DNA of 10,687 bases. Origin: an uncultured Alphaproteobacteria bacterium. Its GTDB lineage: Bacteria; Pseudomonadota; Alphaproteobacteria; RF32; CAG-239. Below, one piece after another: positions 1-10,687 of the stretch (the stretch's first letter is position 1; the number at the start of each line of letters is the position of its first letter). Under the pieces are notes generated by a model, which saw nothing but the letters and a program-made list of their open reading frames with translations, was not told the DNA's origin and did no database searches. The translations under genes were made by a program, and so were the position numbers. The stretch covers positions 1-10,687 of the forward strand of contig UQFU01000059.1 of NCBI GenBank assembly GCA_900540425.1. The letters run 5' to 3'.

Positions 1-113
1 GAACTGGCAAAAGTCTTGTCGCTGAAGTAGATATCTCCGACCTCGACTGCCCGGGTAGCAGGCGCCAGGAGGGTTGCTGAAAGGAGAAGTGCGGTTATAA
101 ATGTTTTGATCAT
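1..113 (-). CDS. Secreted Lcl/DUF1566-like paralogue, 5' end only (cut by the left window edge)
   Basis: Only the first 37 codons are present. The product begins MIKTFITALLL, continues with a hydrophobic signal-peptide core ending in a plausible AxA-type site (TRA before VEVGD), and then reads VEVGDIYFSDKTFAS to the edge. The 113 bases align without gaps to 569-681, the start of the next gene upstream in the operon, with six mismatches, so the two genes are recent tandem duplicates. Four of the six changes fall in the signal-peptide part and the first 55 bases are identical. The start is chosen at the ATG preceded by an AAAGGA ribosome binding site that lies in the 13-base gap after the previous stop. 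It is the last visible cistron of the operon that begins near 4330. Function is unknown; the protein is expected to be exported by Sec. Confidence 0.82.
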   Translation of the reverse strand, partial: MIKTFITALLLSATLLAPATRAVEVGDIYFSDKTFAS

Positions 114-126
114 AGCGTTGTCCTTT

Positions 127-681
127 CTAAAATGCGGTTATGCAGCGGACTTTGAAGGTTGCGCCGCTGCTTTGTGCATTGTTGGCGGAACCTGATTGCG
201 AAATACCGCCGGAGCTGGGGTTAAAGTTATAACACAATCCGGAACGGGTAACGTAAGCAGCGGCAGAAAGCTGTGCGGCAGCTTTGCCGTCTGCTTTGGT
301 GATAGTTTTTAACTTATTGTTTAAGACAGTAAATTTATTATTTGATGTTCCATTGATTTTTTCAGTACTCATGCGCAGCATTTCAATTCGTTTGGGCAGC
401 CACCAATCCCCGGCCAAAGTGCCGTCGGTAAAATATTCGGAACAATAAACGTCGGCATTATAGGCGTTCAGATTGGAAGCCGGTTCTTCCAAAGACATAA
501 TAAGCCCAAAATCCTTATTGGGAGAGACCCAATAAACCAAGCCGATGGCTTTTTTGCCAGATTGCATGGAACTGGCAAAAGTCTTGTCGCTGAAGTAGAT
601 ATCTCCGACCTCGACTGCCCGGGCAGCAGGCGCCAGAAGGGTTACGAAAAGGAGAAGTGCGGTTATAAATGTTTTGGTCAT
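127..681 (-). CDS. Secreted Lcl/DUF1566-like small paralogue, 184 aa
   Basis: Function unknown. Residues 1-22 form a Sec signal peptide (MTKTFITALLL, hydrophobic core, PAARA before VEVGD). The mature protein has the blocks shared with the two upstream paralogues: IGLVYWVSPNKDFGLIMSL (46-64), the GDWWLP block (91-96) followed by an alpha-helical stretch IEMLRM, LKTI (124-127), and a C-terminal VRC (178-180) four residues from the end. GDW(H/W)LP followed by a terminal (V/F)RC resembles the Lcl_C/DUF1566 pattern (GWRLPT...VRCV); that assignment is from memory and unconfirmed. Unlike its larger paralogues it lacks the N-terminal four-cysteine module; it has only three cysteines (80, 150, 180). 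The start is placed at 681, not at an upstream ATG at 711, because GGGAGA sits just before 681 and the upstream ATG lies inside the preceding gene. The gap to that gene's stop is 11 bases. Confidence 0.85.
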   Translation of the reverse strand: MTKTFITALLLFVTLLAPAARAVEVGDIYFSDKTFASSMQSGKKAIGLVYWVSPNKDFGLIMSLEEPASNLNAYNADVYCSEYFTDGTLAGDWWLPKRIEMLRMSTEKINGTSNNKFTVLNNKLKTITKADGKAAAQLSAAAYVTRSGLCYNFNPSSGGISQSGSANNAQSSGATFKVRCITAF

Positions 682-687
682 GATATT

Positions 688-693
688 TCTCCC
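688..693 (-). promoter_or_regulatory. Ribosome binding site deciding the 681 start
   Basis: On the minus strand this reads GGGAGA, six bases before the ATG at 681. Its first base is the last base of the TAG stop of the upstream gene (693-695), so terminating ribosomes sit on the next initiation site. This suggests translational coupling. Confidence 0.65.
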
Positions 694-1661
694 TAAAAAA
701 TGGCCATGCAACGGAAGTGTCCGCGCTGAGCACCGGTGTGAGAAACCCTGGAAGCTTCATATAAATCAACTGCATAAGGTTGTGTTTTGCTTAAGACATC
801 GCTAATGGTCCAATAAGAAGAACTGTAATAGAAAGGATAGCCTCCTCGAATATAATAAGCACTTTTATCGCTGCTATTAGCACACCCCGGAGCCGGATTA
901 TAATTAGCGGTGCTGTTATTAAACCAGTTGCTGTAGATTGTTCCCATGTTTAAATATTGTGAAGGGTATTGCCTACCTACATTGTCAAAATCGTACCAAC
1001 TACCTGATGGGCAGTTTAAGCTAGATATATCGCAATCGACCCAAAGATAGCCCGGATCGGAAGATTTATTAGAACATTTTTGCGAGTAGTAATAACTAAA
1101 AGAAACGCCGAGCGCCTGAGCACCGGGAATGGTTTTGAGCACTTCGTTCAATTTGGTAAACTGCGTCGTATCATCAATCAAATCGCCGTTTTGCATAGTC
1201 ATCATTTCGCCCAGATCCGCCAAGTGCCAATCGCCGACCTTGGTACCTTTGGTCACATAGTTGGCACAGTATTTGATTGCTTCGGCACGGGTTTGCACCG
1301 TCGGCTGGTTGAGCGCCATAATGATGCCATGGTTGCCTTCCGTATTGGGGTGAACGTAGGTGACAATCCCGACAGCGTCTTTATCGGCATTATAGAAGGT
1401 TCCGGTGGAGCCGTCGCTAAACACGACCTGATATTGGTAAATGGCATTTTTGAAGCTGAAATCCTCGCCGCCGAAACCGGAAACGCAAAACATCTTGCTC
1501 TTGTCAAAAGGGCAGCGAATACCGCCCTTGGGGCAGTCGGTTTGGGTGTAGCCCAGAGTATCGCAACTGGGGGATGCGGTACAGCTGATTTCTTCGGCCG
1601 GGGCGCCAAAGCTTAACAGGCTGCCGGAGGCCAGAGTAAGGATAAAAGATAATTTTTTCAT
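693..1661 (-). CDS. Secreted protein with four-cysteine LGY/CPFD module and Lcl/DUF1566-like domain, 322 aa
   Basis: Function unknown. A Sec signal peptide (MKKLSFILTLASGSLLSFG, cleavage near APA-EE, about residue 22) leads into a compact cysteine module at 33-59: C-x2-LGY-x4-C-x6-CPFD-x5-C. This module recurs in the 599-residue protein of the same operon. Then follow blocks shared with the neighbours: NADKDAVGIVTYVHPN (91-106), HGIIMAL (111-117), VGDWHLADL (142-150), LKTIPGA (175-181) and a terminal FRCMAIF. The stretch from about 190 to 310 has no counterpart in the paralogues, is rich in Tyr, Ser and Asn (for example YYIRGGYPFYYSSSYW, 269-284), and its DNA is more A+T-rich than the 5' half. 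The start has a strong AAGGAGGTC site, with a 12-base gap to the previous stop. A surface-binding or adhesive role is possible but only inference. Confidence 0.87.
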   Translation of the reverse strand: MKKLSFILTLASGSLLSFGAPAEEISCTASPSCDTLGYTQTDCPKGGIRCPFDKSKMFCVSGFGGEDFSFKNAIYQYQVVFSDGSTGTFYNADKDAVGIVTYVHPNTEGNHGIIMALNQPTVQTRAEAIKYCANYVTKGTKVGDWHLADLGEMMTMQNGDLIDDTTQFTKLNEVLKTIPGAQALGVSFSYYYSQKCSNKSSDPGYLWVDCDISSLNCPSGSWYDFDNVGRQYPSQYLNMGTIYSNWFNNSTANYNPAPGCANSSDKSAYYIRGGYPFYYSSSYWTISDVLSKTQPYAVDLYEASRVSHTGAQRGHFRCMAIF

Positions 1662-1673
1662 GTTGACCTCCTT

Positions 1674-2513
1674 TTAAAATTCTGCAACGCAGCGGAACTG
1701 CATCTTTTTATTATTTGCTACAGCAGCTAGTCCACTATGATAGTTGACCGAACTATAGAATACGTTGTTACCAGTAGAATAGTGAGAAGCAGACAGGAAA
1801 GCGGGCGAAGTATACCAGTTGGTGTTTCCGCCATTGTAAAATGTGTGACCACCCCAGTTGCCCTGGGTGTTAGCGGTATCCTTTTTATCTATACCATTGT
1901 TGAGACTGCCTATCGAATTCTCATAGAAGAAAGAGAATGACCATTCCAGGTCCCCGGCGGTGGGAATGGTCTTGAGAGCATCGCGGAACATGGTATAATC
2001 GTTGTTTGTTTCTTTTTCATCACCGGCGCTCATGGTGGTGAGTTCGGCCAAATCGGGCAGATGCCAATCCCCTGGCATGGTTCCGGCAGTAGTATAAGCG
2101 GCGCAGATTTTGCGGGCTTCGGCCTGATTTTGAATGGTAAAAGCCGGAAGCGACATCATGATCCCGTGTTTGCGATCCTTGTTTTGGTGAACATAGGTAA
2201 TGATACCGATAGCCGTTTTATCCGCATTGTAATATTTATTGGTCGTTCCATCGGAATAAGCGATTTGATAGCGGCTGATGGCGTTAACGAACTTGTAGTC
2301 GGAAGCGCCGCCTTCGCGAATGCAAAACATTTTGTTCTTGTCAAAGGGGCATTTGATGCCGCCTTTGGGACAACTGGTCTTGGTATAGCCGAGATCGGCA
2401 CAGTCGGGCGCCGCCGTACAGGTCAGCGCGGCGGCTTCTCCGCCAAGCAGCAGCGTTACTGCTGTTGCTGCGGCCAGTCGCATATAGTCTTTCTGTCTCG
2501 TTATCTTCTTCAT
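1674..2513 (-). CDS. Secreted protein with four-cysteine LGY/CPFD module and Lcl/DUF1566-like domain, 279 aa
   Basis: This is a close paralogue of the 693-1661 gene; function unknown. The N-terminus has a charged stretch (MKKITRQKDYMR) and a hydrophobic core LAAATAVTLLLGG ending EAAA, a Sec signal peptide with cleavage near 29. The four-cysteine module is at 38-64 (CADLGY...CPFD...C). Shared blocks follow: NADKTAIGIITYVHQN (96-111), KHGIMMSL (115-122), PGDWHLPDLAEL (147-158), LKTIP (180-184) and a terminal FRCVAEF. Residues 190-268 are the paralogue-specific region, rich in Asn, Gly, Ser and Tyr (NWGGHTFYNGGNTNWYTS). The start at 2513 is backed by a long purine-rich site (AGGAGAAGGAG, 2521-2531) overlapping the upstream gene's TGA. 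An internal ATG at 2483 would still leave a signal peptide and cannot be excluded. The Lcl_C/DUF1566 link is from family knowledge, not a search. Confidence 0.86.
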   Translation of the reverse strand: MKKITRQKDYMRLAAATAVTLLLGGEAAALTCTAAPDCADLGYTKTSCPKGGIKCPFDKNKMFCIREGGASDYKFVNAISRYQIAYSDGTTNKYYNADKTAIGIITYVHQNKDRKHGIMMSLPAFTIQNQAEARKICAAYTTAGTMPGDWHLPDLAELTTMSAGDEKETNNDYTMFRDALKTIPTAGDLEWSFSFFYENSIGSLNNGIDKKDTANTQGNWGGHTFYNGGNTNWYTSPAFLSASHYSTGNNVFYSSVNYHSGLAAVANNKKMQFRCVAEF

Positions 2514-2530
2514 TTTCTTTCTCCTTCTCC

Positions 2531-4330
2531 TCAGTTGCAGATCACCATATCGGTGTCATAGGGACAGCGCAAAATGTTGGCGCCGTCGCAGCTGCTTTGG
2601 CGATAAACCTTATAGCCAAGGGCAACGCAATCGGTCTCGGGCACATCGCAAAATCCGATGTAATCGGTTTTGCAGGCAAAGGGACCATAGGTGCCCGAAC
2701 ATTCGTCATAATTGCATTTGGCGCCTTCGGGACAAGATTTGTATTCGTAGGCATTCGGACATTCTTTACATTCTTTGTACAAGGTTTCGGTTCCGCTGAG
2801 GCATTGTGCCGTGTCGGATTTGGCCGGGCCGGCAAGGCAAACCTGATAGCCGTCGCAGGGATCGGGGATAATCTTGTGTTTGATGACGCCGCCCGAGATA
2901 CAACGCCCGGCCGAGACATATCCCTTGGGGATTTCGGTATAGGGATAATCGTTGCAGCTGGTAAATCCGCCGCAGATAACCTTGTCGGGATCATAAGGGC
3001 AAGGCAGCGTGTTCTGATCGGAACATTCGCTGATGTTTTTGTCGTACCCCAAATCCTCGCAGCTTTGAACCGGCCGTTCGCAATAGTAGGTATAGCCGGT
3101 TTTGCAGCCGACCGGACACTGGTTGCCGGAACATTCGTCGTACCGGCAAATGGCACCTTCGGGGCAGGTTTTGGTGTCGCAGCCGTTGGGGCAGTCCTTG
3201 CAGGACTTGTACCAGGTCTCGGAACCATGCAGGCAGGTTTGCCCTTCGGCACCGGCCGCCGGGCCGAACCGGCATTTCTGATAACCAGAACAGGAGGCCG
3301 GCTGCAGTTTGTAAAAAGTATTGCCGCAGCACCTGCAGGTCTCAGCGGCTTCATAGCCGTTGGGGATTTCAACCGCCTCAAAGCCTTCGCAGATTTTGCA
3401 GCAGGTGCCGTCGTCAGGCAGGCAGTAAACATGGCTGTTGTCATAGGGGCAATAAATCATGCCGCCGCCTTCGCATTGTTCGGGGATTTGAACATAGCCG
3501 AGCTGGTTGCAGTCGGTTTCGGGTTTGGTACAGAAGTAAGTCATGTCAATGGCGCAGCCGGTGACGCAATACCGCTGGGTGCAGGCTTCGTATTCGCAAA
3601 TCGACCCTGCGGGACATTCCTCCAAGTCGCAGCGCGCTTCGCAACGCTTGCAAACCTTGCATTTGGTGACGCCGAAAGAAACACAGGTGTCAGAACCGAT
3701 TTCACAGCCGTCCTGGCAGTCCCAGTAGCCCTCGCAGAGATTGAAACCGTCGGCGGCGCCGATATATTTTTTGCCGTCGCAGCTGTCACAGGACGCCACA
3801 GCCGTCTTGCCCTGCTCTTCCAGTTCCTCTTTGCTGACAAATCCCGGACAGGTGTTGCAGCAATGTCCGAAGTCTTCCGAAAACGAACAATGGTCATTGG
3901 GATCGATAATCCATCCGGCATCGCAAACGTCGGTATAGGTTGGATCCTCTTCTTTGCAGGCCAGTTCCTGATTGAGGGTGCATTCTTTGTACATCGGCTC
4001 GCCGTTGAGGCATTTGTCGGTGAGTTCGTAGGGCTCTTCACATTCGGTATAGATATAGTCGTTTAAGATGCACCATTGCTTGTTGTTACATTTGATGTAG
4101 TCGGAGTTGTAGGGACAGAACTCAACGATGGAATAAGTGTGGCAGACCCGGTTCTGATAGGATTCATAGCCTTCGTCACGGCACTTTTGAGCATCAACAT
4201 TAGAATCAACATCGGTCACTTTGTCGGCGCAATCGGGAAGAAAACAGATGGCAGCCCGCGCTGCCGGTACAGCCAGGAATATGGCGACGCCCAAAGAGAC
4301 ACCGCTTGCGATGTTGAACATTCTGCTCAT
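2531..4330 (-). CDS. Large secreted cysteine-rich modular protein, 599 aa
   Basis: Function unknown. Residues 1-26 are a Sec signal peptide (MSRMFNIASG, hydrophobic core, PAARA before AICF). By my count the mature chain has about 74 cysteines (12%), an even number compatible with complete disulfide pairing outside the cytoplasm. There are at least four copies of the module C-x2-(L/E)GY-x6-7-C-x7-8-CPY(D/N)-x5-C, at 50-81, 274-303, 424-453 and 568-598. The last three belong to a long internal repeat of about 145-150 residues, roughly 238-388, 389-532 and 533-599 (truncated). Each unit begins CP(E/A)G-x2-C-x-Y-(D/E)-x-C; the two complete ones also contain an SCSGYQKC- or PCDGYQVC-type element and an ETxYK-x-CK-x-CPN element. 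No membrane anchor, lipobox, LPXTG motif or catalytic motif is visible. It is the first gene of the operon, with 17 bases to the next. A structural, surface or matrix-like role is plausible but inferred. The upstream ATG at 4381 was not used because 4330 has the ribosome binding site and a proper signal peptide. Confidence 0.87.
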   Translation of the reverse strand: MSRMFNIASGVSLGVAIFLAVPAARAAICFLPDCADKVTDVDSNVDAQKCRDEGYESYQNRVCHTYSIVEFCPYNSDYIKCNNKQWCILNDYIYTECEEPYELTDKCLNGEPMYKECTLNQELACKEEDPTYTDVCDAGWIIDPNDHCSFSEDFGHCCNTCPGFVSKEELEEQGKTAVASCDSCDGKKYIGAADGFNLCEGYWDCQDGCEIGSDTCVSFGVTKCKVCKRCEARCDLEECPAGSICEYEACTQRYCVTGCAIDMTYFCTKPETDCNQLGYVQIPEQCEGGGMIYCPYDNSHVYCLPDDGTCCKICEGFEAVEIPNGYEAAETCRCCGNTFYKLQPASCSGYQKCRFGPAAGAEGQTCLHGSETWYKSCKDCPNGCDTKTCPEGAICRYDECSGNQCPVGCKTGYTYYCERPVQSCEDLGYDKNISECSDQNTLPCPYDPDKVICGGFTSCNDYPYTEIPKGYVSAGRCISGGVIKHKIIPDPCDGYQVCLAGPAKSDTAQCLSGTETLYKECKECPNAYEYKSCPEGAKCNYDECSGTYGPFACKTDYIGFCDVPETDCVALGYKVYRQSSCDGANILRCPYDTDMVICN

Positions 4331-4335
4331 CTTTT

Positions 4336-4343
4336 CCTTCTCC
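4336..4343 (-). promoter_or_regulatory. Ribosome binding site deciding the 4330 start
   Basis: The minus strand reads GGAGAAGG, five bases before the ATG at 4330. It sets the start at MSRMFNI, rather than 17 codons upstream at 4381 (MALFLHIY), where the added residues would spoil the signal peptide. A third ATG at 4321 is also in frame but lies further from the site. Confidence 0.65.
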
Positions 4344-4413
4344 GAATAGACAAAAGCATAAATATGTAAAAATAAAGCCAATAAAAGAATTTACGACTCT
4401 ATCACTAGGAATA

Positions 4414-4442
4414 ATCATATAATAGTTTTCCGAAAATTGCAA
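4414..4442 (-). promoter_or_regulatory. Candidate sigma-70-type promoter, proximal, for the cysteine-rich operon
   Basis: On the minus strand there is TTGCAA (4437-4442), a 17-base spacer, and TATGAT (4414-4419, 5/6 match to TATAAT). This would start transcription near 4407 and leave a leader of about 75 bases. It lies between the terminator of the parC operon and the first gene of the secreted-protein operon, where a promoter is required. Confidence 0.45.
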
Positions 4443-4448
4443 TAATTA

Positions 4449-4476
4449 ATTATAGTCCCCTAAGGAAATTTGTCTA
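4449..4476 (-). promoter_or_regulatory. Candidate sigma-70-type promoter, distal, for the cysteine-rich operon
   Basis: On the minus strand there is TAGACA (4471-4476, 5/6), a 16-base spacer, and a perfect TATAAT (4449-4454). A 12-base palindrome ATAATTAATTAT (4442-4453) overlaps the -10 box and ends at the -35 of the proximal promoter. It could be a regulator site or chance in A/T-rich DNA. The matches are by eye only. Confidence 0.45.
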
Positions 4477-4493
4477 TTATGTTTTAAATTATA

Positions 4494-4524
4494 AAATAAA
4501 CCCCGGGCTTTCCGGGGTTTATTT
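4494..4524 (-). terminator. Rho-independent terminator of the kdsA-recO-parC operon
   Basis: Perfect 13-bp inverted repeat AAATAAACCCCGG (4494-4506) / CCGGGGTTTATTT (4512-4524) with a 5-base loop. The minus strand continues into a T-rich tract after the stem. It lies 31 bases past the stop of the 60-residue gene. The T-run on the plus side (4522-4529) makes it look bidirectional, but no plus-strand gene needs it. Confidence 0.88.
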
Positions 4525-4555
4525 TTTTTAAAGAAAACAGATTTATTTTTGAGAT

Positions 4556-4738
4556 TTATTCTTCAGCCAAAGCTTTTTTCAAAACGTAGTTCAGACGTTT
4601 CATTGCCTGAAGCTTCATATCATCCTCGGACAATCCGGCCGGAACGACAACAGCCGCTTCTATGCGTGTTTCAGGTTCGATGGCAGTTACTTTTACGACA
4701 TTGCCGTTTCTGACAAACTCAAACAAAATCTCTGCCAT
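4556..4738 (-). CDS. Small conserved-looking protein downstream of parC, 60 aa
   Basis: The protein reads MAEILFEFVRNGNVVKVTAIEP at its start, then a segment predicted as beta (RIEAAVVVPAG), then an acidic-to-basic helical end (SEDDMKLQAMKRLNYVLKKAL). It has no signal peptide and no cysteines, so it is probably cytosolic. The pattern recalls a family of about 60-residue alphaproteobacterial proteins of unknown function (I think DUF6898); this is from memory and not firm. It starts five bases after the parC stop, with GAGGGA inside the parC end as a likely ribosome binding site, so it is co-transcribed and probably co-translated with parC. The start at 4738 is preferred over 4822 because the longer frame would overlap the parC coding region by 26 codons and lacks its own site. 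Confidence 0.72.
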   Translation of the reverse strand: MAEILFEFVRNGNVVKVTAIEPETRIEAAVVVPAGLSEDDMKLQAMKRLNYVLKKALAEE

Positions 4739-4743
4739 TTTTC

Positions 4744-6969
4744 TTAATCCCTCAAAAACTTGTTGCTTTTGGGAAAACCAAAAGGAGCCAGCTTGCCTAC
4801 CTGCCCGCGATGTCCGAGCCACCCCAGCAAATCGGTCTCGGTTTTGGTTCCGCCGGCACGGGTATAAACAAAGCCTTCTTCTTCTTTGAATATCTGGACA
4901 TCGGACATTCCGCCGTCTTTATATTTTTGCAAGGTAACGCCGCGACCGCGCGCCATGGTCGGGATTTCTTCAAGCTTGAAAACCAGGAGCTTGCGGTTAT
5001 CGCCGATAATTGCAACCATGTCTCCGCTAATACGGCGGCAAAAGACGGCTGCTTCGCCTTCGGCCAAATTCATAATCTTGCGGCCGTTGCGAGTTTGAGC
5101 CAAAATGTGATTTTCATCAACCAGAAAGCCTTTGCCGGCATTGGACGCAATCAGATATTGCGCCTTGGGATCAAAAACAAACATTTCGCAGATGTTGTCG
5201 CTGATACCCAAATCCACCATCAGGCGCAACGGCTGCCCGAAACCGCGACCGCTGGGAATTTCGCTGGCATTCAGGTTAAAAAACTTGCCGGACGTGTCAA
5301 ACAAAATGATTTTATCGGTGGTTTGCGCATGAATAGCCGCCTGCAAAGCGTCGTCGTCCTTAAACTTAAATTCTTCATTCAGGGCAGCATGACCTTTGAC
5401 GCAACGAATCCACCCTTTTTGGGAAAGGATAACCGTAATCGGCTCTTTCTCCACCAGGGCTTCAATCGGCACTTCAATATCATCGGGAACTTCGGCAAAC
5501 TCTGTCCGGCGGCGGCCGAGCGCCGTCTTTTTGCCGAATTTTTCGCGGATAAGCTTGATTTCTCCGGCAATAGCCTGCCATCTTAATTTTTCGTCGGCAA
5601 GCAAAGCTTCCAATTCGCCTTTTTCGGCCGTGAGGTCGTCAAATTCCTTGCGGATTTCGCTTTCTTCAAGTTTTCGCAGGTTGCGCAGTTTCATATTCAA
5701 AATCGCTTCCGCCTGATTATCGGTCAGCGAAAACTTGGCAACCATAACCGTCTTGGGGTCTTCTTCTTCGCGGATAATGCGGATAATCTCGTCCAAATTC
5801 AGATAGGCAATCAGGTAGCCGGAAAGGATTTCGAGCCGGCTGTTTATCTTGTCCAGCCGATAATTGACCCTGCGCACCAAAACGTTATGACGGTGTTTCA
5901 GAAATTCTGCCAGGACTTCTTTGAGACTCATTACCCGCGGCACACCGTCAGAATCGAGTACATTCATGTTCATGGCAAAACGGACTTCCAGCTCCGTCTG
6001 CTTAAACAGGTGCTCCATCAGCATTTTTGCGTCGACGCTGCGGTTTTTGGGTTCCAGCACAATCCGGACGTCATGGGTCGATTCATCGCGGATATCGCTT
6101 AACAACGGCAGCTTTTTCTCCAGCAGCAAGGCGGCAATTTTTTCAATCAGTTTGGATTTCTGCACCTGATAGGGAATTTCCTTAATTACGATTTGATATT
6201 GTCCGTGGGTCAGATCTTCGCTCTCCCAGCGGGCACGAATGCGGAAACCGCCGCGGCCTTGCTTATAGGTATTCAGAATACTATCAAAACTGTCGACGAT
6301 AATTCCGCCGGTCGGGAAATCGGGGCCTTTGATTTTGCGGACCAGCGGTTCCTCTCCGCAATCGGGATTATCTATCAGATAAAGCAAAGCGTCGCAGACT
6401 TCGCCCAGGTTATGCGGCGGAATATTGGTCGCCATGCCGACGGCGATACCGGCAGAGCCGTTGCACAACAAATTCGGAACCATGGCCGGCATGATAACCG
6501 GTTCATGTTCTTCCCCGTCATAGGTTTCGCGCATATCAACGGCGTTTTCATTCAGCCCTTCCATCAGAGCCATGGCAAATTCGGTCAGCCGGGCTTCCGT
6601 ATATCGCATAGCTGCCGGGCCGTCACCATCGATATTTCCGAAGTTTCCCTGCCCGTCGACCAGAGGATAGCGAACCGAAAAGTCCTGCGCCAGGCGAACC
6701 ATGGCCATATAAACCGCCGAATCGCCGTGGGGATGATATTTACCAATCACGTCGCCGACGACGCGGGCGCATTTCTTAAACCCGGATTTGGGGTCGAGAT
6801 GCAGCTGCCGCATGGCATAGAGCAACCGGCGGTGAACCGGTTTCAGCCCGTCGCGGACATCCGGAAGCGAGCGGGCCACAATCGTTGACATGGCGTAAGA
6901 CAAATATCTTTTGCTCAATTCTTCGGCAAGGTGGACATCTTTGATTTTTTCTTCGACAACTTCGGACAT
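4744..6969 (-). CDS. parC: DNA topoisomerase IV subunit A
   Basis: ParC forms the DNA-cleaving half of topoisomerase IV (with ParE, not in this window), which decatenates daughter chromosomes and relaxes supercoils using ATP. The 741 residues are usual for alphaproteobacteria. Visible signatures are [25 protein letters not shown] (split here as [14 protein letters not shown], 25-37, and [11 protein letters not shown], 38-48), [16 protein letters not shown] (72-87), and [10 protein letters not shown] (119-128), with the catalytic Tyr at 123 preceded by the usual Arg. A long coiled coil follows around 430-480. The C-terminal pinwheel domain (about 500-741) has [16 protein letters not shown] (672-687), where GyrA would carry a full GyrA box; its absence and the alpha-type wording favour ParC over GyrA. 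The quinolone-determining Ser is present (84), but the position four residues on, usually Glu or Asp, is Met 88. parC lies 19 bases after recO and only GAGA-like bases precede its ATG. Confidence 0.95.
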
Positions 6970-6988
6970 ATTTTTCTCAATTTCAAGC

Positions 6989-7705
6989 TTATAAGTTCAA
7001 CTGGCTTAGCAAATTAGCACGGTTTTCGGGGAATTTCAAGCCATGCGTATTAAAAAAGTTTTTTTGCAGGAAAAACTCCGTCATCTTTAGCAAATCCGCC
7101 ATTTCCGATGGCTTAGGGCGATATTCCCGCCGCAAAATAAACTGTGGATAAGCAAACAGCTTTTCCCGATACAAAAACCCGGCTTCCTCACAAACCGCCC
7201 GTCCGCTTTTCGGGGAAACATAGCGCAGGTTTTCGGTACTGCCGGTAGCGGCACATTCGCTTAAATCCAGTCCAATTCCCAAATTTTCGAGCAGGTAGAA
7301 TTCAAAATAGCAATAATGCGCCAGCCAATTTTCTTCGTTTATCAGGTTGAAAAAACTGTCAATATAATAATAAAAACGCTCAAGAGGCGCCTGCTCGGGC
7401 AGGCAATCGCGGCACAGGCTGCACAAAGATGCCAAAGCGGCCAGCTTGCCGCCGTCGGTCATAAAATTTACGGCGCCGGCATTTTGCAATTCCACCTTCA
7501 GGCTGAGCATATTTTCATCGACACGGGCGTAGGCCTCTATGGTCACGGAATTTCCGAGCTGATAGGTTCCGAGGTTTTTCTTATGCAAGCAGTTTTTGAC
7601 ATAACCGGTTATTTTGCCGTAATTTCGCGTCAACACGGTGAGAATCAACGAACTCTCACCGTGTTTGCGCAAACCGATTATGTATCCCTCATCACGAAAC
7701 TGCAA
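6989..7705 (-). CDS. recO: DNA repair protein RecO, TTG start
   Basis: RecO works with RecF and RecR to load RecA on SSB-coated single-stranded DNA and to anneal strands at gaps. The 238 residues match the usual length. The N-terminal OB-fold begins [19 protein letters not shown], matching the family's M-x-(W/F)-R-DEG start. The C-terminal half has [10 protein letters not shown] (147-156) and [10 protein letters not shown] (162-171), typical of alphaproteobacterial RecO. Cysteines at 95, 98 and 101 (C-x2-C-x2-C) are of unknown relevance. The start codon is TTG: no ATG or GTG exists between it and the in-frame stop upstream, and starting here gives the family N-terminus. Ribosome binding is weak (GGGAT upstream). 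It starts 14 bases after the kdsA stop, so it depends on the kdsA promoter. A 12-bp inverted repeat lies in codons 14-25. Confidence 0.93.
7632..7665 (-). repeat. Perfect 12-bp inverted repeat inside recO codons 14-25
   Basis: AACACGGTGAGA (7632-7643) is the exact reverse complement of TCTCACCGTGTT (7654-7665), with 10 bases between. In the recO mRNA it would form a 12-bp hairpin beginning about 40 bases after the TTG start. No T-run follows on the minus strand, so it is not a standard terminator. It could affect recO translation or mRNA stability, or be a protein-binding site. Confidence 0.75.
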
Positions 7706-7719
7706 TCCGGATATCCCGA

Positions 7720-8565
7720 TTAATAGTCATGAATCATGGTTTTTGTAATCCGGTCATAGGCCTGCAATTCGCCCAAAACCCGTTTCATATCATGCAACGG
7801 GATCATGTTCGGGCCGTCGCTCAGAGCCTTGGCTGGATTGTCATGGGTTTCAATAAACACCGCAGCAACCCCGACTGCAACCGCCGCCCGAGCCAGAACC
7901 GGAGCATATTCCGCCTGGCCGCCGGAGCAACCGCCCTGCCCGCCCGGCTGCTGAACCGAGTGGGTCGCGTCAAAAATAACCGGACAGCCGCTGTCTTTGG
8001 CCATTCGCGGCAGCCCCCGAAAATCGGTCACCAACGTATTATAGCCAAAACTGGAGCCGCGTTCGGTAATACAAACATTGACGTTTCCGGAATCATCAGA
8101 CTTTTTGACAATGTTTTTCATATCCCAAGGTGCCAAAAACTGGCCTTTTTTGATATTAACAACCTTTCCGGTCCGGGCAGCGGCAACAACCAGATCCGTC
8201 TGGCGGCACAAAAAAGCCGGAATTTGCAACATATCAACATGCGGCGCAACAATTTCACATTGTTCTTTTTCATGCACATCGGTTACAATCGGCAGTCCGG
8301 CATACAGTTTTTTTATTTCATCAAAGGTCCGCATGCCTTCTTCCAGTCCAACGCCGCGCGGCGTATTGATCGACGTCCGGTTGGCCTTGTCAAAAGAGGC
8401 TTTGAAAATATAATTCATTCCCAATTCTTTGGTGATTTCGACCATGGCGCCGGCCATATCGATGGCGTGCTGGCGGCTCTCAATCTGACAAGGGCCGGCC
8501 AACAGCGCCAGAGGCAGCTTGTTGCCGAGTTCAAAATCGCCGATTTTGATAATTCTTTGTTCCAT
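7720..8565 (-). CDS. kdsA: 3-deoxy-8-phosphooctulonate synthase (Kdo-8-P synthase), metal-dependent class
   Basis: KdsA condenses arabinose-5-phosphate with phosphoenolpyruvate to Kdo-8-phosphate, the committed step to Kdo of the LPS inner core; it is cytosolic. The TIM-barrel signatures are clear: LAGPCQIESR (22-31), FKASFDKANRTS (54-65), GLEEGM (73-78), QIPAFLCRQTDL (114-125), KKGQFLAPWD (139-148), FDATHSVQQPGG (198-209) and ALSDGPN (247-253). The residues equivalent to the Aquifex metal ligands are all present (Cys26, His202, Glu239, Asp250), whereas the E. coli metal-independent enzyme has Asn in place of the Cys; this one is therefore class II. Length (281) is normal. The start has an AAGGA site. 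It is the first gene of the operon with recO, parC and the 60-residue gene, an unusual pairing of envelope and DNA-maintenance functions. Confidence 0.96.
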   Translation of the reverse strand: MEQRIIKIGDFELGNKLPLALLAGPCQIESRQHAIDMAGAMVEITKELGMNYIFKASFDKANRTSINTPRGVGLEEGMRTFDEIKKLYAGLPIVTDVHEKEQCEIVAPHVDMLQIPAFLCRQTDLVVAAARTGKVVNIKKGQFLAPWDMKNIVKKSDDSGNVNVCITERGSSFGYNTLVTDFRGLPRMAKDSGCPVIFDATHSVQQPGGQGGCSGGQAEYAPVLARAAVAVGVAAVFIETHDNPAKALSDGPNMIPLHDMKRVLGELQAYDRITKTMIHDY

Positions 8566-8597
8566 CTCTGTTTCCTTTAGTTATTCCAGATATCCTA

Positions 8598-8626
8598 CCA
8601 ATAGCAAAAATTATTGTTTTTGGCAA
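8598..8626 (-). promoter_or_regulatory. Weak candidate promoter for the kdsA operon
   Basis: On the minus strand there is TTGCCA (8621-8626), 17 bases, then TATTGG (8598-8603). The -35 box is good and the -10 box poor. The 8566-8634 gap is the only non-coding DNA between the upstream terminator and kdsA, so some promoter must lie here or further upstream. The exact boxes are a guess. Confidence 0.28.
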
Positions 8627-8634
8627 TCAGAATA

Positions 8635-8674
8635 AAGCAAAATCCCCAGCGCCAAAGCTTCCGGGGATTTGCTT
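8635..8674 (-). terminator. Rho-independent terminator after the 336-residue gene
   Basis: Minus-strand stem GCAAATCCCC (8663-8672) pairs with GGGGATTTTGC (8637-8647) with a one-base bulge, and is extended by AAGC/GCTT at the ends. A 15-base loop region can form a smaller inner AGC/GCT stem. A short T-rich tract follows. It begins seven bases after the stop of the upstream gene and separates it from kdsA. Confidence 0.72.
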
Positions 8675-8680
8675 AAAAGT

Positions 8681-9691
8681 TTAACTTTGCTCTTTAAAAA
8701 AATCGCTTATATCCCTTTTCAGGTAAGAGGCATAAAAGCGCAACGCGATTTGCCACTTTATCCGTTGGAACAGATTTTCCTTAAACTGCGGCGCACACTG
8801 ACGAAAAAGATCAAGTTTCCGCCGGTGGTAGTCGCAATTTTCCTTAGGGCTGTTGCCAAGGCGGGCATAGGCTTCAATATTTTCCAACATATTCTGCAAC
8901 AAAATTTTTTTGGAAACATGGGGAGCTTTCCATAAATCTCCCAGTTTGCAATCCTTTATGCAACGCAGAACCGTAAGAGTTTTTTTGCGATGTTTTTGCA
9001 ACAATTCCAAAGAACGACAGCAAGTCAGCGGGTTGGCAACCAAGAGAACCGTACCGGGCAATTCTTCAAGGTTCTCACTATATTCTACTCCGCAGCCTTT
9101 GAGCAGTTGGCGCGCTTTGGCTGTCTGGTAGGGATTCCGGTGGTCTCCGAGCAGATAAATCCCGGGCTTCTTTCCTTGTTTGAGAGCAGAGGAATAAATT
9201 TCAAGTCCCCGCGGGATGATGTCCAAATCAGACGCATCAATCACAATACTGTTATATTCTCTGAACTCACAACTGACAACCCCCGGAAGGAAATCCACTT
9301 TGGGAATGTCCGTCAAGTTTTGCGGGCAAAACCAGATATGCGCCGAATGCAGAAAATTATGACAGATGTTATAAATCACTTTTGTTTCAGCAATGACAAC
9401 GATCGTTTTAGCCTGATATTTTGTCATAATCTTGCTGATTCTCTGATAATAACATCCCGAGCGGTCATATTTGCGCAACATCGGAAGGCTATCCTGACAA
9501 ATTTCCGGCATATGCCGATATTTTTCAGCATAAAAATCCGTCAAACACTTTACAATTCTGCTACTTTTCTTATTCCTGTCGGCAATAATCAGATCAACCT
9601 TCGGAATTGTCCATTCCAGATAATTGCTCCTCATCGTGCTAACTTGGAAAACATCATGAGCACAGGCAAAAAATTTATTAAACCTTTTCAT
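8681..9691 (-). CDS. Protein of unknown function, 336 aa
   Basis: I do not recognise this protein. It has no signal peptide and no clear membrane segment, so it is probably cytosolic. It contains alternating hydrophobic strands and helices that look Rossmann-like: KVDLIIAD (31-38), KTIVVIAETKVIYNIC (95-110), YNSIVIDASDLDIIPRG (146-162), KPGIYLLGDHRNP (175-187), and TVLLVANPLTCC (214-225). The C-terminal third is basic and helical (KILLQNMLENIEAYARL, 262-278; KWQIALRFYASYLKRD, 312-327). There are about 14 cysteines, high for a cytosolic protein, and no recognised motif. A two-domain nucleotide-sugar or glycosyltransferase-like enzyme would fit the pagP and kdsA neighbours, but this is inference only. 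The ATG at 9691 lacks a ribosome binding site; the next in-frame ATG (9634, MRSNYLEW) also lacks one, so the start is uncertain. A terminator follows at once, and a promoter may lie at 9734-9762. Confidence 0.72.
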   Translation of the reverse strand: MKRFNKFFACAHDVFQVSTMRSNYLEWTIPKVDLIIADRNKKSSRIVKCLTDFYAEKYRHMPEICQDSLPMLRKYDRSGCYYQRISKIMTKYQAKTIVVIAETKVIYNICHNFLHSAHIWFCPQNLTDIPKVDFLPGVVSCEFREYNSIVIDASDLDIIPRGLEIYSSALKQGKKPGIYLLGDHRNPYQTAKARQLLKGCGVEYSENLEELPGTVLLVANPLTCCRSLELLQKHRKKTLTVLRCIKDCKLGDLWKAPHVSKKILLQNMLENIEAYARLGNSPKENCDYHRRKLDLFRQCAPQFKENLFQRIKWQIALRFYASYLKRDISDFFKEQS

Positions 9692-9733
9692 AAAAAAATA
9701 ATATTAAAAATGAATAATTTTTACTTATTCAAA

Positions 9734-9762
9734 TTTTTAACACGGCGATTCAGCTTTTTCAA
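9734..9762 (-). promoter_or_regulatory. Candidate promoter for the 336-residue gene
   Basis: On the minus strand there is TTGAAA (9757-9762, 5/6), a 17-base spacer, and TAAAAA (9734-9739, 4/6). It lies in the 80-base, very A/T-rich gap between the pagP stop and the gene. No terminator-like hairpin is seen after pagP, so read-through is also possible. Confidence 0.35.
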
Positions 9763-9771
9763 GTTTTTTTA

Positions 9772-10338
9772 TCAGAACCGATAACGCAGCCATGTAAACA
9801 GGACGTTGCCGTCATTTTTTACGCCCGGAACGTACGCCGCCTGCACCGCCCAGTCTTTGTATTCTACCCCGGCCAACGGCAACGGCAGCGGCACGGGAAT
9901 ATAAAGATATTCGTGCCTCTGGGTCAGACTGACGGTAAAACCGACGCCGACCCGAAAATCAGGATTGCAGTTGACAAACCAGTTTTTTTGAAAAGCATAA
10001 CCGAAAATCGTTTGCGGATGATAATTAGAATCGTCAAAAACCATTGCATAGAGTGCATGCCAATCGCCATCTTCATCATAGCGCGCTTTTCCCAGCCCTA
10101 TTCCCCAAGGCATTTCATTGTACTCATCTATTTTGTCTTGGTCATACGCCAAGCGGTTGTGCCAGGTATTAATCGGTATAAACAGGTTATATTCTCCGTT
10201 TTGCCAGGTTTTTCCCACATTATGCCCAAATTTTTCAAGCAACGGCATATTTTCTTCATGGTTCAAAACTTCGGCCTTTGCAGGAAAGTGAGTCGATAAC
10301 ATACTGAAAAGCAATATAAAAGCATATAATTTTTTCAT
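9772..10338 (-). CDS. pagP: Lipid A palmitoyltransferase PagP (outer membrane acyltransferase), 188 aa
   Basis: PagP is an eight-stranded outer-membrane beta-barrel that moves an acyl chain from a phospholipid sn-1 position to lipid A, strengthening the outer membrane and altering TLR4 recognition. Residues 1-22 are a signal peptide (MKKLYAFILLFSML...PAKA). The mature protein tracks E. coli PagP: KTWQNGEYNLFIPINTWHNR (43-62), AYDQDKIDEYNEMPWGIGLG (65-84), GDWHALYAMVFDDS (91-104), YIPVPLPLPLAGVEY (146-160) and YVPGVKNDGNVLFTWLRYRF (169-188), ending in Phe as barrel proteins do. The catalytic set His60, Asp103, Ser104 corresponds to E. coli His33, Asp76, Ser77. The E. coli Gly88 'hydrocarbon ruler' position appears to be Ala115. 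The start at 10338 is preferred over 10359 because AGGA lies eight bases before it and the signal peptide begins MKK. In E. coli pagP is controlled by PhoPQ; no such site is evident here. Confidence 0.94.
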   Translation of the reverse strand: MKKLYAFILLFSMLSTHFPAKAEVLNHEENMPLLEKFGHNVGKTWQNGEYNLFIPINTWHNRLAYDQDKIDEYNEMPWGIGLGKARYDEDGDWHALYAMVFDDSNYHPQTIFGYAFQKNWFVNCNPDFRVGVGFTVSLTQRHEYLYIPVPLPLPLAGVEYKDWAVQAAYVPGVKNDGNVLFTWLRYRF

Positions 10339-10346
10339 TTCTTTAG

Positions 10347-10350
10347 TCCT
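10347..10350 (-). promoter_or_regulatory. pagP: Ribosome binding site deciding the pagP start
   Basis: The minus strand reads AGGA, eight bases before the ATG at 10338. The ATG at 10359 also has AAGGA upstream, but only one base separates the two, too close for normal initiation, and its seven extra residues would precede the MKK of the signal peptide. Confidence 0.6.
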
Positions 10351-10362
10351 AGTGTTCATATC

Positions 10363-10391
10363 CTTTTATGCTATAAATTAAAAATTGGCAA
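10363..10391 (-). promoter_or_regulatory. Weak candidate promoter for pagP
   Basis: On the minus strand there is TTGCCA (10386-10391), 17 bases, then TAAAAG (10363-10368). The -35 box is fair and the -10 box poor. The placement just upstream of pagP in A/T-rich DNA is sensible. Confidence 0.3.
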
Positions 10392-10424
10392 CAGATTTAT
10401 TAGCTGCACAGGCACGGCCTGAGC

Positions 10425-10527
10425 GCAGGCAGCGCCTGAGGCATGACTTGCTACTGATGTTTGGGTGCCATGAATCCGCGTTGCGGGCAGCGCCCGAGGC
10501 ATCACTTGCTACTTCGACTTGGGAGCC
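10425..10527. repeat. Two imperfect 45-bp direct repeats, 58-bp period, each with a small G/C hairpin
   Basis: Copy A is 10425-10469 and copy B 10483-10527; 36 of 45 positions match. The conserved core is GCRGGCAGCGCCYGAGGCAT followed by SACTTGCTACT; the five bases after it all differ, then TTGGG-x-GCC returns. Each copy starts with a hairpin around an AGC loop: CAGGC/GCCTG in A and CGGGC/GCCCG in B. The two differences in the stem are compensatory. Copy A can also pair its CAGGC with GCCTG at 10417-10421 just upstream. Confidence 0.72.
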
Positions 10528-10581
10528 CTAGAAGCGCGATGCTTACAATGTGCACTATCTCTACTTTCCAATAACTGTCAC

Positions 10582-10615
10582 CCCTCGTTTTTTCGGCAGA
10601 AAAAACGTCAGAGGG
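10582..10615. repeat. Compact hairpin: nine-bp A/T-rich stem, four-base loop, and flanking CCCTC/GAGGG
   Basis: CGTTTTTTC (10586-10594) and GAAAAAACG (10599-10607) form a perfect 9-bp stem with loop GGCA. CCCTC (10582-10586) and GAGGG (10611-10615) can extend it across a short bulge. On the minus strand the descending stem includes a run of six As, then G/C, and no T-run follows, so it is a poor terminator. It may be part of an interspersed repeat or end the transcript of a gene outside the window. Confidence 0.6.
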
Positions 10616-10642
10616 TCTACAAGTTTTTTTTCTGTTTCCTTT

Positions 10643-10687
10643 TGTCATTCCGGGCTTGTTTTTTTACTGTCATTCCGGGCTTGACCC
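10643..10687. repeat. Interspersed palindromic repeat, two copies, the second cut by the window edge
   Basis: TGTCATTCCGGGCTTG occurs at 10643-10658 and exactly again at 10668-10683. The second copy goes on ACCC, the start of the matching arm of a CCGGG-CTTGA-CCCGG palindrome common as a dispersed repeat in several alphaproteobacteria (from memory). The first copy lacks this arm and runs into a T-run instead, so it is a truncated copy. Confidence 0.7.

Follow-up and report, generated by a model that had tools for sequence, protein, structure and literature searches.

The left 4.3 kb of the stretch of DNA analysed here is a tight row of minus-strand genes for predicted secreted proteins, in the order D, C, B, A, A'. 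The whole stretch, called the window, comprises 10,687 nt of contig UQFU01000059.1 (GCA_900540425.1, positions 1-10,687, forward strand), and its source is an alphaproteobacterium likely to be of animal-gut origin. D is a cysteine-rich protein with four copies of a small cysteine module. C and B each carry one copy of the same module in front of a domain like the C-terminal domain of the Legionella collagen-like protein Lcl. The proposal developed below, which we hold to be probable, is that D is a stalk carrying C and B as interchangeable lectin-type heads by way of the shared module, with all three assembled as one complex. The features of the row are:

1..113, minus strand: A', 5' part of a second Lcl-like gene, truncated at the window edge (start codon 111-113)
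127..681, minus strand: A, Lcl-like protein of 184 aa without the module, 3 cysteines, signal peptide seen by eye
693..1661, minus strand: B, head of 322 aa with one module and an Lcl-like domain, 11 cysteines
852..1076, minus strand: variable loop of B (residues 196-270), from block conservation and the divergence of loci L015 and L018
1485..1565, minus strand: module of B (residues 33-59), with a fifth cysteine at residue 27
1674..2513, minus strand: C, head of 279 aa with one module and an Lcl-like domain, 7 cysteines
1677..2288, minus strand: predicted C-type-lectin-like domain of C (residues 76-279)
1779..1883, minus strand: variable loop of C (residues 211-245), from block conservation and the divergence of L015 and L018
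2322..2402, minus strand: module of C (residues 38-64), with a fifth cysteine at residue 32
2531..4330, minus strand: D, cysteine-rich protein of 599 aa, 74 cysteines, four modules, predicted stalk
2537..2629, minus strand: module 4 of D (residues 568-598), C-terminal
2972..3061, minus strand: module 3 of D (residues 424-453)
3422..3511, minus strand: module 2 of D (residues 274-303)
4088..4183, minus strand: module 1 of D (residues 50-81)
4449..4476, minus strand: promoter-like site upstream of D, TAGACA-16-TATAAT, a consensus match only (11/12)

The gaps along the row are 17, 12, 11 and 13 nt, and a Shine-Dalgarno-like sequence was seen by eye before each start. In all, 13 sites of this promoter-like kind were found, against 6.8 in shuffled sequence. 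A preliminary description of this DNA had called the genes co-transcribed; these features make that likely rather than demonstrated. It had also given all the proteins Sec signal peptides; by eye, such peptides can be seen in D, C, B and A, the four proteins that are complete. The row has more members than it had listed, namely the module-less, 184-residue Lcl-like protein A and the start of A'. A' is 95% identical to A over 113 nt (A region 569-681), and A scores 91 bits against our own Lcl profile. D consists of an N-terminal part followed by repeats, each some 147 residues long and closed by a module; in the relative L002 the D frame has 831 residues, with one added unit.

The four-cysteine motif reported earlier was found at residues 50, 274, 424 and 568 of D, residue 33 of B and residue 38 of C. 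It did not occur by chance in 20,000 shuffles of each protein, and the spacing of five residues from CP(Y/F)(D/N) to the last cysteine is indeed identical in all six modules. The motif itself needs correction. The heads keep a fifth cysteine, 6 residues upstream of it, and modules 2-4 of D have a cysteine 7 residues upstream that is likely, from its position, to be the equivalent. A common EGF- or TIL-like domain scattered at random, which would have refuted the earlier reading, did not emerge: Pfam gave no such match, and the placement is non-random. A sequence search of PDB with profile A2 gave no match at E<=1. For D there was no usable PDB match, and the Foldseek rows (NEL, Entamoeba Gal/GalNAc lectin) are weak and are not used as evidence. 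The extra cysteine was also considered as part of a lipobox, an idea dropped by eye, most of the heads seen being without that motif.

D and the heads recur as neighbours. Sixty regions around D matches were fetched, hand-picked from the match list and so not a random sample. Repeat units were present in 45 D genes; 37 of these had a module or Lcl gene next, 4 were cut by contig ends and 4 were unpaired by profile; beside one of the last (L110) a module head was found by pattern. The search for heads covered the downstream side of D, and that for D the upstream side of heads. A reverse census was made from Lcl_C matches in genomes G014, G031, G039 and G043, with 83 of 104 matches entered by hand and 82 of these 83 lying in fetched stretches (templates, second domains of one frame and unfetched places were excluded). 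It yielded 79 frames, 43 with D upstream, 10 without D, 21 at or near contig edges, 4 fusions and 1 short frame. The module was present in all 43 heads behind D, as against 1 of the 10 without D (p 2e-9 in Fisher's test, each paralogue counted separately). Ahead of the exception, L187, lies a frame of 556 aa that the D profile missed, with 76 cysteines and an IYWLPD motif. In addition, D parts and Lcl domains are fused in nine proteins, seven of which have no module between the two parts, as expected if the module is a joint. We infer that role for it from sequence.

Other architectures were also met. Giant proteins of 987-1884 aa combine the N-terminal part of D with several Lcl-like domains (L007, L008, L009, L010 and L011). 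Four frames of 582-596 aa (L106, L130, L131, L132) join the same N-terminal part to another C-terminal half, which by eye is similar in all four. Six Lcl_C proteins (L153, L157, L191, L192, L193, L203) have neither module nor D and, by eye, no signal peptide; they are possibly cytosolic.

Structure prediction, made for C and D as single chains, gave the head of C a C-type-lectin-like fold like that of the Lcl C-terminal domain. For Lcl_C/DUF1566 (PF07603, cut-off 34.9 bits), C of the window scores 14.9 bits, below the cut-off, and B and A have no match at E<=1; the head of the sister locus L144 passes with 39.8 bits. A PF07603 match over the cut-off is contained in 7 of 12 genomes. The NCBIfam model adhesin_Lcl matched none of the window proteins, and the L144 head reaches 32.3 bits where 500 are needed. 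The window families are the same as those of the relatives: hhalign gives 99.9% (E 2.9e-37) for head families A3 and A6, and 99.8% (E 5e-30) for D families A1 and A7. The predicted fold of the head is that of the C-terminal domain of Legionella Lcl (DUF1566/PF07603, PDB 8q4e). Unlike in Lcl, the stalk is predicted to be a cysteine-rich protein of its own, the head comes after a cysteine module, and no collagen-like repeats were seen by eye in the window translations. The C-terminal domain of Bdellovibrio Bd2740 (8oks) and the Bacteroides fimbrial protein BACOVA_04982 (4eps) are also among the closest known systems, but their stalks differ, and we know of no cysteine module in either. In the heads of L120, L129 and L144 a heptad-like linker, NKITELTNKITEQTNKITEVT (NKITELT repeats), runs from module to lectin domain; its sequence suggests a coiled coil, and perhaps trimeric heads.

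Conservation is unevenly spread over the cassettes. Median identities between the cassettes of one genome, for D, head module and rest of the head, were 0.90, 0.91 and 0.46 in G043 (8 cassettes) and 0.89, 0.62 and 0.55 in G057 (7 cassettes). The values were 0.75, 0.78 and 0.50 in G014 (3 cassettes, a fourth being dropped when the module pattern failed) and 0.61, 0.70 and 0.38 in G001 (5 cassettes), the genome nearest to the window. D exceeds the rest of the head in all four genomes and is nearly constant in only two. Within the heads of the window type, conservation per 15-residue block falls to 0.52-0.75 in the B loop, against 0.73-0.97 elsewhere (18 sequences), and to 0.53-0.61 in the three blocks covering residues 211-255 of C (10 sequences). 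The two window-type cassette copies in G002, L015 and L018, lie on two contigs of one metagenome-assembled genome (MAG) and may be duplicates or a strain mixture; they differ at 29 of 60 bases in the C loop, 85 of 237 in the B loop and 14 of 60 at the end of A', and strong divergence resumes beyond.

In sister genomes the heads are targets of a diversity-generating retroelement (DGR) with reverse transcriptase (RT), Avd, template and adenine-specific variable repeat, the changes lying at the C-terminus of the head. One RVT_1 gene over the cut-off occurs in 7 of 12 genomes. In six of the seven the RT is preceded by an Avd-like gene and by adenine-rich templates, one to three per genome and 11 in all; no template was seen in the seventh, G003. 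PF00078 and bAvd PF22296 exceed the Pfam cut-offs in L144 and L145, the two loci to which the Pfam check of Avd was limited; the NCBI DGR Avd model matched below its cut-off (53.3 vs 80). G031 and G043 share the arrangement D, head, Avd, templates, RT. In G039 and G054 a head precedes Avd and the contig ends there, and G002 and G057 have no adjoining head. Between template and adjacent head, 19 of 44 adenines and 0 of 71 other bases are changed in L145, 13 of 41 and 0 of 71 in L144, and 20 of 48 and 0 of 67 in L141.

Dispersed heads bear this signature as well. In G043, 18 of 28 heads carry the variable repeat, called at a score >100 with an adenine rate >3x that of the rest; 300 shuffled tails reach 34.5. 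This scoring tolerates and favours adenine mismatches, and ordinary BLAST of the templates against the heads gave no matches. Under neutral scoring the pooled mismatches of the 18 heads were A 303/736, C 30/423, G 9/334 and T 18/540, so the bias is not lost when adenine mismatches are unfavoured. The recognised targets in G002 are long D-Lcl fusion proteins or their fragment. A variable repeat also ends the giant fusion L011 (16/30 A, 2/79 other) and is carried by L153 (18/41 A, 0/71 other), which has Lcl_C without module or D.

The window heads were considered as present targets of such an element and rejected, no template match rising above chance. Against 8 of the 11 templates the tails of A, B and C score 24, 26 and 22, where the shuffled 95% level is 30-32. 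The best whole-gene scores, 30, 37 and 27 against the same 8 templates, are not above the reach of shuffled tails. There is no RT among the ten window proteins scanned with Pfam, and none was found in G001. The retroelement is thus a feature of the relatives and not of the predicted window operon, and the loops of the window heads vary by some other route. DGR variation is also an unlikely source of the L015/L018 loop differences, since length and third codon positions change and no template is known for them. Beyond the loop, where the sequence aligns with the DGR region, only 1-8 of 60 bases per block differ.

The known systems most like this one also include the multi-target DGR of T. denticola and the DUF1566 targets of the human microbiome. 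DUF1566 is the Pfam domain reported most often among DGR targets (PMC4159848, PMC6642488), isolates of T. denticola combine a single RT with two to seven dispersed targets (PMC4891356), and remote targets are described in cyanobacteria too (PMC7517822). The present targets differ in being paired with a cysteine-rich gene that shares a module with them, and one genome has at least 18 of them, against two to seven in T. denticola.

The cysteine counts of D depend on how the protein ends. Module-ended D proteins have an even count in 34 of 34 cases, and those ending in a short CxxC tail an odd one in 16 of 17; the exception, L058, looks by eye like an Lcl fusion. Other D ends are odd in 6 cases and even in 14, and heads are odd in 86 of 100. 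Among 53 D-head pairs, the 32 of the short class have D odd in 32, head odd in 29 and an even sum in 29; the sum is even in two of seven pairs of other types. DsbA was present in all 12 genomes searched. An interchain disulfide is likely, from these counts, for the short-D class; it does not fit the class of the window. Many of the parity rows are close paralogues, so that the effective number is small.

The distribution of D is narrow. A contig scan with two D peptide patterns found 13 loci in three MAGs, all titled Alphaproteobacteria (BRZ_DM__bin47 with 8, BRZ_CI__bin121 with 4 and a roe deer cecum MAG with 1). A D match occurs in 35 of the 129 genomes around BRZ_DM__bin47, itself included, and in 6 of 385 in a class-wide draw; five of these six were already in the set of relatives, and the sixth (G122) is weak (E 1e-4). 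As far as sampled, D is therefore nearly confined to one lineage. The closest locus, L001, holds two tandem cassettes, D-C-B-A-A'-D-C-A, so the gene row of the window may continue past its edge. No match to DUF6898, parC, recO, kdsA or pagP was found in the 16.9 kb of L001, and the cassette position beside parC is thus not conserved there.

In the window itself the right part contains DUF6898, parC, recO, kdsA, an unknown gene and pagP (Pfam scan). The 336-aa gene at 8681-9691 has no Pfam match at E<=1. The lipid A palmitoyltransferase gene pagP (9772-10359; PF07017, 202.7 bits) fits an outer membrane with lipid A. Near the right end (10425-10540 and 10643-10683) lie two 58-nt direct repeats, head to tail and 74% identical, and in the same area the 16-nt sequence TGTCATTCCGGGCTTG occurs twice without change; both kinds resemble intergenic repeats. 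Rfam gave no match in the window at the gathering score.

In the proposed complex D would be the stalk, with the module-less lectin-type A and A' encoded in the same row. Modules would close the D repeats, and in the long class the C-terminus of D, and would open the heads. The N-terminal module of a head may then dock on the C-terminal end of D, be it a module or the shorter CxxC tail, and in the short-D class the two chains would likely be linked by a disulfide. The complex would leave the cell and bind glycans or surface molecules in the gut. The preliminary description had suggested joint assembly or a ligand in common. D-head adjacency, the module-D census, the D-Lcl fusions and cysteine parity in one class of pairs lend assembly indirect support; a shared ligand becomes less likely, because the would-be binding parts are the most variable ones.

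Several observations weigh against the stalk-and-head complex. The 14 module-ended pairs, the class of the window, have D even in 13, head odd in 12 and an even sum in only 1, so a 1:1 D-head disulfide does not close there. Relatedness raises the parity counts: after clustering at 60%, module-ended D is even in 11 of 11, short D odd in 2 of 3 and heads odd in 35 of 42. Proteins with only the N-terminal part of D (n=16) were paired once and cut once, leaving 14 unpaired, and the order D-then-head is partly built into the search design. Two of the nine fusions retain a module between their parts. D falls short of near-constancy in G014 and G001, and the failure of the window tails to match templates and the lack of an RT in G001 belong here too. 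The D model is poor (mean predicted local distance difference test (pLDDT) 65.7, predicted template modelling score 0.24), and the module of C was modelled at pLDDT ~59-78.

D, C, B and A might instead be separate, co-expressed secreted proteins, the module being a generic disulfide-knotted cap or spacer, perhaps with affinity for a shared ligand, for instance mucus or the envelope. The A proteins count for this and against the complex: they have signal peptides and no module, yet stand within D gene rows. So do the module-less heads without D, which by eye lack a signal peptide; the module-D link is thereby confounded with secretion, and the module may mark secretion and not D. Separate proteins seem unlikely all the same when 37 of 45 D genes, at dispersed loci, have a module or Lcl gene behind them, with several pairs within one genome, and a common-ligand module would need no neighbouring D. 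A better conserved partner beside a variable client would also fit a chaperone, with D as a periplasmic folding partner or cap for the disulfide-rich variable heads and outside the final structure. This we regard as improbable: D is a repeat array with a variable number of units (599 to 831 aa), and the nine proteins in which D parts are fused to Lcl domains speak rather for a structural part. For the long-D cassettes, the window included, the odd counts of C (7) and B (11) beside an even D would suit a disulfide between the two heads, held as a pair non-covalently on the stalk. That is very unlikely, L003, L004 and L005 having one module head per D and no second module head available there.

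With the stalk-and-head complex preferred, a wider picture may be drawn, tentatively and with more doubt than confidence. It would be a system of constant and variable chains, in which dispersed two-gene cassettes encode a conserved stalk and a lectin-fold head joined by modules and in part by interchain disulfides, while one reverse transcriptase rewrites many heads. The window would represent a long-stalk branch, left untouched by the retroelement, in which loops of the heads are swapped blockwise instead.

Earlier work has described DGRs, DUF1566 targets and targets that are dispersed; the searches turned up no paper on a dedicated cysteine-rich partner that lies beside the targets and shares a module with them. 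Pairing of DGR targets with such a partner did not appear in the available portions of the papers searched, PMC3521204 and PMC8144416 among them, subscription journals lying mostly outside the search. To our knowledge, how a cell holds and displays such hypervariable proteins is a mostly open question. Lectin-type DGR targets are common in gut metagenomes (PMC4159848, PMC6642488). A partner gene that travels with many heads and shares a module with them is a concrete candidate for the display scaffold. It would be a natural example in which a single conserved type of partner serves a multitude of variable binders, among them a branch, that of the window, which seemingly varies without the retroelement.

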